A stretch of DNA of 11,459 nucleotides, taken from positions 1-11,459 of the forward strand of contig CALBGD010000209.1 of assembly GCA_937893735.1 (NCBI GenBank). The letters are read 5' to 3'. The position numbers and the translations under genes are program-made. The first letter of the stretch is position 1. Every line of letters starts with the position of its first letter. The notes beneath the pieces were generated by a model. The model made no database searches. It saw only the letters and a list, made by a program, of their open reading frames with translations, and was not told where the DNA came from. Source of the DNA: an uncultured Clostridia bacterium. Lineage in GTDB: Bacteria > Bacillota > Clostridia > Oscillospirales > Ruminococcaceae. Positions 6,549 through 11,362 of this stretch are shown here, one piece after another.

Positions 6549-7523
6549 ATGAAGGAAATATCAAAGCTTATGGATTACAGACCTGATATCAAGATAGTAG
6601 ACGCGACACTGCGCGACGGAGGACTTGTCAACGGCTTCCGCTTCACTGACGAGTTCGTTAAGGATCTGTACCAGACTAATATAAAGGCCGGCGTTGACGT
6701 TATGGAGTTCGGCTACAAGGCTGACAAGGAAATGTTCGACGTCAAGGATTTCGGCAAGTGGAAGTTCTGCGATGACGAGGATATCCGCGCGGTTGTCGGC
6801 GACAACAACACCGACCTCAAAATCGCCGTTATGGCGGACGTAGGCCGCTGCAACTACAAGCAGGACATCAAGCCCCGCAACGAAAGCCCCGTTGACGTTA
6901 TCCGTGTTGCTACATACCTCAACCAGATCCCCGCAGCCGTTGACGTCATCGAGGACGCAGCAGCCAAGGGCTACGAGGTGACCTGCAATATCATGGCTAT
7001 ATCCAATGTTCAGGACACTGATATCAAGGTCGCTCTCGACATTCTCGGCAAATCCCCGGTAAACGTATTCTACATCGTTGACAGCTTCGGCGCACTGTTC
7101 CCAGAGCAGATAGAGCGCATAGCTTCGCTCTACGGAGAGTTTGCGGCAAAATACGGCAAGAAGCTCGGTATCCACGCGCACAACAACCAGCAGCTCGCAT
7201 TCGCGAACACTGTCGAGGCAGTCGGCGACGGAGTTGACTGGCTGGACGGCACCTACGCAGAGATGGGCAGAGGAGCCGGCAACTGCGCAATGGAACTCCT
7301 GCTCGGATTCCTCAAGAACCCGAAGTACAATATCTACCCCGCTATCCAGTTCATTGAGAAGCACATGAAGAAGCTCAGAGCGGACGGCGTTGTATGGGGC
7401 TATGATATGCAGTACCTGCTGACCGGTATGCTCAACCAGCACCCGCGCACAGCTATCCAGTTCACCAAGGACAAGAGAACCGATCTCTCTGAGTTCTACA
7501 AGGAAGTTACATCTCAGGAATAA
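6549..7523 (+). CDS. DRE-TIM metallolyase (HMGL-like aldolase) of unknown substrate
   Basis: The 324-residue protein has the TIM-barrel signature of the HMG-CoA lyase-like family. DATLRDGG (18-25) supplies the Arg-Asp pair used for catalysis and metal binding. DSFGAL starts at 178, HAHNN (209-213) gives the two metal-binding histidines, and MGRGAGN (239-245) is the glycine-rich loop. Relatives include 4-hydroxy-2-oxovalerate aldolase, homocitrate and isopropylmalate synthases and HMG-CoA lyase. They cleave or form C-C bonds next to a carbonyl using a divalent metal. The length lacks the C-terminal regulatory domain of isopropylmalate synthase, so a simple aldolase or lyase is more likely. The neighbours give no pathway. 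AAGGA (6534-6538) is 10 nt upstream of the ATG. It is transcribed alone. Confidence 0.82.
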   Translation: MKEISKLMDYRPDIKIVDATLRDGGLVNGFRFTDEFVKDLYQTNIKAGVDVMEFGYKADKEMFDVKDFGKWKFCDDEDIRAVVGDNNTDLKIAVMADVGRCNYKQDIKPRNESPVDVIRVATYLNQIPAAVDVIEDAAAKGYEVTCNIMAISNVQDTDIKVALDILGKSPVNVFYIVDSFGALFPEQIERIASLYGEFAAKYGKKLGIHAHNNQQLAFANTVEAVGDGVDWLDGTYAEMGRGAGNCAMELLLGFLKNPKYNIYPAIQFIEKHMKKLRADGVVWGYDMQYLLTGMLNQHPRTAIQFTKDKRTDLSEFYKEVTSQE

Positions 7524-10517: not shown

Positions 10518-10551
10518 TATCCCCCGGACATAGTTCGGGGGATATTTTTTG
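10518..10551 (+). terminator. Intrinsic terminator of the thrS-SseB transcript
   Basis: TATCCCCCG/CGGGGGATA (10518-10526 with 10536-10544), nine perfect pairs, is followed by TTTTTTG. Confidence 0.9.
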
Positions 10552-10553
10552 TA

Positions 10554-10585
10554 CAAAAAATCCCCCTCCGTAACCGGAGGGGGAT
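10554..10585 (-). terminator. Intrinsic terminator of the ferredoxin gene
   Basis: An 11-bp perfect stem, ATCCCCCTCCG/CGGAGGGGGAT (10560-10570 with 10575-10585), has a 4-nt loop and is followed on the minus strand by TTTTTTG. It sits back to back with the thrS-side terminator, so the converging transcripts end without overlap. Confidence 0.9.
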
Positions 10586-10607: not shown

Positions 10608-10778
10608 TTAAGCCTCAGAAGGAGCGCCAACAGGGCAGGTACCTGCACAAGCGCCGCAGCTGATGCAAGTGTCAGCGTCGATAACGTACTTGCCGTCACC
10701 CTCGGAAATTGCGTTTACGGGACATCCCTCAGCGCAAGCGCCGCAAGCGATGCAATCGTCAGAAATTACGTATGCCAT
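10608..10778 (-). CDS. 2[4Fe-4S] ferredoxin, 56 residues
   Basis: Reading the minus strand from 10778 gives MAYVISDDCIACGACAEGCP and onward to SEA, 56 residues. Eight cysteines form two CxxCxxCxxxCP motifs: C9, C12, C15, C19 and C38, C41, C44, C48. That is the clostridial-type ferredoxin that carries two low-potential [4Fe-4S] clusters and supplies electrons to hydrogenases, pyruvate:ferredoxin oxidoreductase and related enzymes. The length matches the family (about 55). GGAGGT (10788-10793 on this strand) is 9 nt before the ATG. It has its own promoter and terminator. It could also serve the ferredoxin-thioredoxin reductase-like protein at 6146, but the sequence does not show this. Confidence 0.96.
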   Translation of the reverse strand: MAYVISDDCIACGACAEGCPVNAISEGDGKYVIDADTCISCGACAGTCPVGAPSEA

Positions 10779-10937: not shown

Positions 10938-11007
10938 GTGCGGTCTAACGTTAACTCCGGGAAACTCTTATAGTTAGTTTAAACTAATACAATATTCCCA
11001 AACCGCA
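10938..11007. other. Palindrome-rich 70-bp segment in the gene-free region
   Basis: TGCGGT (10938-10943) and ACCGCA (11002-11007) close a segment that can pair further: GGGAA (10960-10964) with TTCCC (10995-10999), and the perfect 14-bp palindrome TTAGTTTAAACTAA (10974-10987). CTAAC/GTTAG offers an alternative stem. I recognise no known element. It lies between the candidate small RNA terminator and the ferredoxin promoter. Confidence 0.4.
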
Positions 11008-11017
11008 TGAAAATTAA

Positions 11018-11052
11018 GCAAAAAAAATTCCGCAGACAGGGGATGTCTGCGG
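11018..11052 (-). terminator. Intrinsic terminator of the candidate small RNA
   Basis: CCGCAGACA/TGTCTGCGG (11030-11038 with 11044-11052) forms nine perfect pairs with loop TCCCC on the minus strand, followed by AA and eight T. On the plus strand no T-run follows, so it acts on the minus strand only. Confidence 0.87.
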
Positions 11053-11178
11053 TAAACAAAATGAATTAGCCGAACGCTTGGGGAAAAGCGCTTTTCATCG
11101 GCTGAAATAATTGGGGAAAATATATTAAGAAGTATGTTAGCTATAGGAGCTTACAATACTGTCTTGCATATTTATTGC
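11020..11178 (-). ncRNA. Candidate small regulatory RNA with C-rich hairpin loops
   Basis: A minus-strand unit of about 159 nt runs from a predicted start near 11178 to a terminator. Four hairpins follow each other in RNA order. The first (11160-11131) has an AGCT/AGCT core with loop CCTAT. The second (11126-11106) is an A/U-only stem with loop UUCCCC. The third (11103-11068) has stems AGCCG/CGGCT and AGCGCTT/AAGCGTT with loop UUCCCC. The terminator hairpin (11052-11030) has a 9-bp stem with loop UCCCC and U8 after it. No open frame with a ribosome binding site is evident. C-rich loops of this kind occur in Firmicute small RNAs that pair with Shine-Dalgarno regions. Its family is unknown to me. 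Confidence 0.55.
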
Positions 11179-11184
11179 ACTCTT

Positions 11185-11213
11185 ATTATATCATTTTCGC
11201 TCGCCTTTTGCAA
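11185..11213 (-). promoter_or_regulatory. Promoter of the candidate small RNA
   Basis: On the minus strand, TTGCAA (11208-11213), a 17-bp spacer and TATAAT (11185-11190): a perfect -10 and a four-of-six -35. It points toward the hairpin series and terminator at 11020. Confidence 0.68.
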
Positions 11214-11333: not shown

Positions 11334-11362
11334 TTGCAATTCATTCCCTGTTTATGTATAAT
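11334..11362 (+). promoter_or_regulatory. Rightward promoter leading out of the window
   Basis: TTGCAA (11334-11339), a 17-bp spacer and TATAAT (11357-11362). A start near 11369 would give a leader of about 50 nt to the ribosome binding site at 11409-11415. Confidence 0.62.

Follow-up and report, generated by a model that had tools for sequence, protein, structure and literature searches.

Does the minus strand at positions 11213-11021 of an 11,459-nt stretch of DNA from an uncultured Clostridia bacterium (GenBank assembly GCA_937893735.1, contig CALBGD010000209.1; the whole stretch is called the window below) encode a small RNA (sRNA), and what might that RNA do? At this locus, a consensus-like promoter (TTGCAA, 17 nt, TGATATAAT) is followed by hairpins and then by an intrinsic terminator. 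Comparison with relatives shows that the locus behaves as an RNA-like gene under both structural and motif conservation. It is probably a stand-alone gene for a trans-acting, C-rich sRNA of ~158 nt that would block Shine-Dalgarno sites, working like LhrC, RoxS, and sX13 but forming a separate family. The region 11180-11018 (163 nt) folded at −43.5 kcal/mol compared with −24.1 kcal/mol for dinucleotide shuffles (z −5.7; 0 of 200 shuffles equal), and its minimum free energy (MFE) fold contained three hairpins (11165-11127, 11103-11068, and the terminator at 11052-11030). The only minus-strand open reading frame (ORF) of at least 20 amino acids inside the predicted transcript was a 26-aa TTG ORF running past the 3′ end, and a 52-aa ORF terminated at the −10 box of the sRNA promoter.

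Relatives were located by scanning with the neighboring SseB-like protein (SseB by Pfam). The scan yielded three relatives, the genomes of which all carry the sRNA, and the genus of one of them was then searched. In this DNA search, the sRNA was matched in 42 of the 43 genomes, G023 being the sole miss. In the closest relatives, the BLAST match spanned the −35 box to the U-tract (e.g., query 3-195 in G003); in more distant relatives, it began further in, with the aligned promoters still present. One clear full copy was found per genome. Partial second matches were located at contig ends in G001, G002, G011, and G017, a second copy is possible in G011, and the second match in G030 was a 26-nt fragment. 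The 42 genomes and the window make up the set of 43 sequences used for conservation, in which related sequences are not independent of one another. A promoter pattern tolerating spacings of 16-19 nt matched both boxes in 39 of these sequences, and the spacing was 17 nt in every one. The minus-strand promoter of the original prediction was borne out as TTGCAA-17-TATAAT with a TG preceding the −10 box (11213-11185). The three sequences in which the −10 box was missed were G015 and G017, which are cut by a contig edge, and G034, the flank of which has diverged.

The architecture predicted for the RNA is three hairpins and a single-stranded CCCC linker. Four successive hairpins had originally been proposed, and three of them stand, namely hairpin 1, hairpin 3 (we retain the numbering), and the strong terminator with its U-tract (11052-11021). 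By contrast, hairpin 2 was lost, as the linker AATATATTTTCCCCAATTATTT folded alone at 0.0 kcal/mol and its CCCC was left unpaired in the MFE fold of the window. Accordingly, of the C-rich loops described as identical, UUCCCC of hairpin 3 and UCCCC of the terminator are retained, whereas the UUCCCC assigned to hairpin 2 lies in the single-stranded linker.

The stems were further evaluated by covariation. RNAalifold analysis of 38 sequences supported the base of hairpin 1 and the terminator; 5 of the 18 pairs had changed on both sides. The tip of hairpin 1 and hairpin 3 were missed because the sequence-only alignment slides there; therefore, each homologue was folded singly, the pairs were tabulated, and chimeras of stem halves were tested. 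The tabulation, which leans towards structure as its pairs were taken from each sequence's own fold, gave several pair types per stem position. Native halves of hairpin 1 had a mean of −8.74, compared with −5.19 for 1368 chimeras, 9.6% of which reached the native mean. The corresponding values were −12.22 and −9.14 for hairpin 3 (1574 chimeras; 9.2%) and −15.55 and −12.56 for the terminator (604 chimeras; 24%). As the linker is near-invariant, covariation cannot support a hairpin there. Conservation of stems and C-rich loops in relatives was therefore confirmed for the three covarying stems and the CCCC motifs but not for hairpin 2, nor for the CCUAU loop of hairpin 1, which had been singled out as a feature: hairpin 1 tips took 38 distinct forms among the homologues.

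The C-rich motifs were conserved more strictly. The linker was exact, with one A optional, in 42 of the 43 sequences, and the context of its CCCC motif is ATATATTTTCCCCAATTATTT. The loop motif of hairpin 3, TTCCCCAA, was present in all 43. The terminator loop read ACCCCCTTGT in 37 sequences and took other forms in the window, G002, and G019 (40 of 43 by the pattern in total); of the three sequences in which the pattern was not found, two are truncated and one is a variant. UUUUCCCCAA occurs twice in the RNA, with a further CCCC in the terminator loop. In the ensemble predicted for the window RNA, 11 of the 12 motif C residues were unpaired with values of 0.98-1.0 and the remaining one with 0.69. 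The idea of a conserved sRNA whose exposed C-rich motifs lend themselves to Shine-Dalgarno pairing thus gains strong support from conservation.

We infer that the sRNA is transcribed from its own promoter and acts in trans. In the proposed mechanism, transcription would end at the intrinsic terminator, and the exposed C-rich motifs (the two copies of UUUUCCCCAA and the CCCC of the terminator loop) would start pairing with ribosome-binding sites containing GGGG. Pairing would block translation initiation, giving one sRNA three entry points, and Hfq, which is present in 39 of the 43 genomes, might perhaps assist. The sRNA occurs in almost all sampled members of the genus and has a simple repeated seed; to our knowledge, trans-acting sRNAs have been little studied in uncultured Clostridia. 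The coordinates of the features are given in the table.

Table. Features of the sRNA locus and its downstream neighbor in the window
Feature	Positions	Strand	Basis or conservation
−35 box, TTGCAA	11208..11213	−	TTGCAA in 27/43 sequences, TTGAAA in 11/43, TTGCAT in 1/43
−10 box, TATAAT, extended TG	11185..11190	−	found in 40/43 sequences
Small RNA, predicted 158-nt transcript	11021..11178	−	start inferred from −10 box, end from U-tract
Hairpin 1, near-constant lower stem AAGAcAGTAT/ATACTTCTT, tip highly variable and covarying	11127..11165	−	per-homologue folds, chimeras
Linker AATATATTTTCCCCAATTATTT, single-stranded, first CCCC at 11116-11113	11105..11126	−	no fold alone
Hairpin 3, two-part stem, 5′ bulge, loop UUCCCC (CCCC 11083-11080)	11068..11103	−	stem covaries
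Intrinsic terminator and U-tract, loop UCCCC with third CCCC (11042-11039)	11021..11052	−	stem covaries
Downstream 56-aa gene, 2[4Fe-4S] ferredoxin-like by eye	10608..10778	−	neighbor, no constant partner

Candidate targets were sought with a 19-nt complement of the linker. In the 43 genomes, 157 matches with up to 3 mismatches were detected, of which 44 were the sRNA loci themselves and 113 were others, compared with 45 for the reversed control. Among the 13 listed non-self matches with 1-2 mismatches, 5 were at gene starts (4 different genes) and the rest were elsewhere. Seven further places with 3 mismatches, chosen for looking like gene starts, were also read. This search, the reading of these 20 places, and a ranking in G012 led to divIC as the candidate target.

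The divIC gene (DivIC, PF04977) was found in 35 of the 43 genus genomes, and 31 of these 35 had TGGGG in the 40 nt preceding its start, as judged by a start-caller that did not reward GGGG. At all 31 sites, the duplex with the linker fell in the top 3.4% when ranked against 1213 background gene starts. In a comparison of 19 gene families, for which the start-caller rewarded GGGG in all families alike and the 18 others include some likely false ORFs, the mean duplex energy of divIC was −18.2 compared with −11.8 for the next best family; TGGGGA was found in 20 of 25 divIC cases and in at most 2 of 30 in the other families, from which divIC stood clearly apart. The site falls in the overlapping 3′ end of yabQ (YabQ, PF09578 and TIGR02893), and the position of the G run relative to the divIC start varies among genomes while the enclosing YabQ tail changes. 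GGG accounted for 45 of 71 Gly codons in the YabQ tail but for 77 of 438 in the YabQ body, and for 3-19% of Gly codons in predicted genes of the sampled genomes. As GGA-GAA would leave the residues unchanged and make a more typical Shine-Dalgarno sequence, the G run needs another reason; sRNA pairing is one candidate and ribosome binding in this context a second.

The divIC start site (UUGGGGAA...AUG) is the most likely direct target found, and we tentatively suggest that, through it, the sRNA would be linked with septum formation across most of the genus. With divIC as a target, the sRNA would be a brake on septation beside spore genes. The wider proposal is more doubtful: a new sRNA family belonging to the core of a single Clostridia genus would control division by covering the start of divIC (FtsB-like) in the sporulation-linked yabP-yabQ-divIC cluster, with GGG codons in the yabQ tail kept as a landing site for CCCC. 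If this is true, an sRNA directed at the next gene would have molded the coding sequence of yabQ. Division genes are known targets of sRNAs in other systems, e.g., of DicF; a text search of the available literature found no paper linking a small RNA with divIC and Shine-Dalgarno.

Several results weigh against these readings. No divIC was found in 8 of the 43 genomes, and a second query added none. The site was absent in G025, G027, and G001 and partial in G003 (AGGGGAA), though all four carry the sRNA. The DivIC tree placed these four genomes in one clade of seven, together with three carriers; this clade holds the close relatives of the window, and the candidate is thus not clean in the window's own clade. 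As the tree needs only two trait changes, the 31 carrier genomes are not independent. The divIC site may also be nothing more than a normal ribosome-binding site that overlaps codons of yabQ. Furthermore, when 1382 predicted gene starts were scanned (from G012, G010, and G003, along with limited portions of G022, G001, G002, and the window), the complementarity of the three motifs showed no clear excess over shuffled motifs. For the linker complement with both flanks fully shuffled, the observed count was reached by 35% of 300 shuffles at up to 5 mismatches and by 34% at up to 6. When only the 5′ flank was shuffled, 72.5% and 93.5% of 200 shuffles reached it; when only the 3′ flank was shuffled, 8.5% and 2% of 200 did, which is a hint. 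The scans did not bear out the multi-target regulator initially envisaged, and one conserved candidate, divIC, emerged.

The lack of a genome-wide excess would also fit a protein sponge, in which a protein that binds C-rich RNA is titrated by the three CCCC motifs in the manner of CsrB-type RNAs, which titrate CsrA via repeated GGA loops. A near-identical motif is indeed repeated at exposed positions (UUUUCCCCAA twice and the third CCCC). We consider a sponge unlikely, however, with just three copies of a motif that is a good Shine-Dalgarno complement and has its own complement at divIC in 31 of 35 genomes. Another explanation is a single dominant pairing partner other than an mRNA start, either another RNA or a coding region, and it would account for the constancy of the linker over more than 25 nt. 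Conservation far beyond the CCCC (42 of 43 exact) exceeds the need of a 4-nt seed, but no single recurrent partner and no exact non-self complement were seen among the linker-complement matches listed, and we regard such a partner as improbable. That the locus is conserved DNA or a cis element only, e.g., a terminator array of a neighboring gene, and not a free RNA is highly improbable: in at least 30 of the 42 genomes, a Mem_trans/auxin-efflux-type gene precedes the sRNA on the same strand, but the sRNA's own promoter is kept with fixed spacing and the element stays constant in differing contexts (ferredoxin in the window; htpG, named by eye, adjoining the copies of G002, G003, and G022).

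Under the preferred reading of an sRNA that blocks Shine-Dalgarno sites, other candidate targets were tried and rejected. Perfect TTGGGGAAAA...ATG targets gave 113 matches, 33 of them in the sRNA itself, leaving 80, and the reversed control gave 71; a few strings were shared between genomes. A motility regulon, prompted by GGGG at the CheW and FlgK starts in G012, was not conserved across the genus, with GGGG at 7 of 16 CheW starts (14 of 30 loci had no start by the pattern) and at 4 of 25 FlgK starts (5 of 30 had none). No CheW or FlgK match at E ≤ 1e-20 was found in G031, G035, G041, and G042, which carry the sRNA in diverged form; this suggests a non-motile lineage. A FlgN-like family was dropped owing to unreliable start calls, and two genes that we take to be FtsE (in G003) and DUF368-like were dropped as the orthologue compared was without TTGGGGA. 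GGGG was found at the yabP start in 14 of 17 called loci, but it was not counted, as several cases lie, by eye, within the 3′ arm of a terminator-like hairpin. In L308, L322, and other divIC loci, this C-run...G-run hairpin lies ~45 nt ahead of yabP and shares sequence with its ribosome-binding site in several genomes of the genus; by eye, it is possibly an attenuator.

With regard to genomic context, the position upstream of a ferredoxin gene, which had been taken as general, did not hold: the stretch preceding the ferredoxin-like gene is conserved in both L002 and L003, and the sRNA is absent there. The left flank in the window (to ~11269) resembles those of G002 and G003 and, more weakly, that of G043; in the window, the htpG side thus seems to have been brought together with the ferredoxin locus. 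Upstream of the 56-aa gene, which we take to be a 2[4Fe-4S] ferredoxin, the block at 10940-11010 contains an TTAGTTTAAACTAA palindrome and a nearby TTGGGAATATTG, both conserved in L002 and L003, and is probably the promoter or operator of this gene. A plus-strand promoter-like sequence (TTGCAA-17-TATAAT, 11334-11362) points away from the sRNA promoter. It may drive a gene lying past the end of the window, which could be htpG, as found next to the G002 and G003 copies. Between the SseB-like and ferredoxin-like genes (10518-10583) are two G/C-rich inverted repeats, one of which was scored as a plus-strand terminator. Elsewhere in the window (6549-7523), a putative aldolase of the 4-hydroxy-2-oxovalerate type scored far below the NCBIfam cut-offs.

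Among the sampled family genomes, no convincing sRNA match was found outside the genus; these searches sampled parts of the family, and their filters may miss diverged homologues. A covariance model run on 247 family genomes detected 4 genus members and one doubtful match, G118 (E 0.0084). BLAST against 396 family genomes detected 7 clear genus members, and the next best match, G136 (E 5.9e-5), had a different architecture. A double-motif pattern returned the same 7 and 6 chance-like others, with 9 matches by tally in the control. Weak matches (L061, L068-L090) were rejected as homologues outside the genus, as by eye the architecture was absent. A literature search gave no evident match for C-rich, Shine-Dalgarno-blocking sRNAs in Ruminococcus or Ruminococcaceae among the matches listed.

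Finally, the sRNA was compared with known C-rich sRNAs. Rfam 15, which should include RsaE/RoxS, LhrC, and 6C models, gave 6 matches in the window at E ≤ 5, none overlapping 11018-11213, and a single match (E 4.8), outside the sRNA, in the loci of six of the 42 relatives. Actinobacterial 6C RNA/B11 also has hairpins with C-rich loops, but it belongs to Actinobacteria, has longer C runs, and is not linked to the window sRNA by any Rfam match. The suggested kinship with RsaE/RoxS was likewise not supported by any overlapping match, and the likeness appears to be one of working. RoxS has several C-rich regions and a 10-nt duplication, CCCCUUUGUU, and pairs with Shine-Dalgarno sequences (PMC4409812). 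The duplication is comparable to the repeated UUUUCCCCAA; CCCCUUUGUU itself was not found in the window RNA, where the alignment shows UUUUCCCCAA instead. RoxS/RsaE of Bacillus and Staphylococcus differ from the window sRNA in motif sequence, structure, and taxon (PMC4409812).

sX13 of Xanthomonas has loops with CCCC, CCCC, and CCCCC and represses mRNAs that carry G-rich motifs close to where translation starts, 21 nucleotides being given for two targets (PMC3771888). It resembles the window sRNA in its CCCC-containing loops and the G-rich motifs near starts, but organism and sequence are unrelated and all three sX13 motifs are in hairpin loops (PMC3771888). The closest known design in layout is that of LhrC1-5 of Listeria monocytogenes, which pair at the lapB ribosome-binding region, as predicted and shown (PMC4132741). 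The C-rich motifs of LhrC are at the same three kinds of place as in the window sRNA. Unlike LhrC, the window sRNA begins with an additional hairpin that covaries and has its motifs in the order linker, loop, and terminator loop, a genus-specific linker, another candidate target, and no Rfam match (PMC4132741). Several gene copies per genome, five in the case of LhrC, were not found for the window-type sRNA, with its one clear copy (PMC4132741). A three-site design of the LhrC type in another lineage would fit the view that redundant CCCC seeds have evolved more than once among Gram-positive bacteria.
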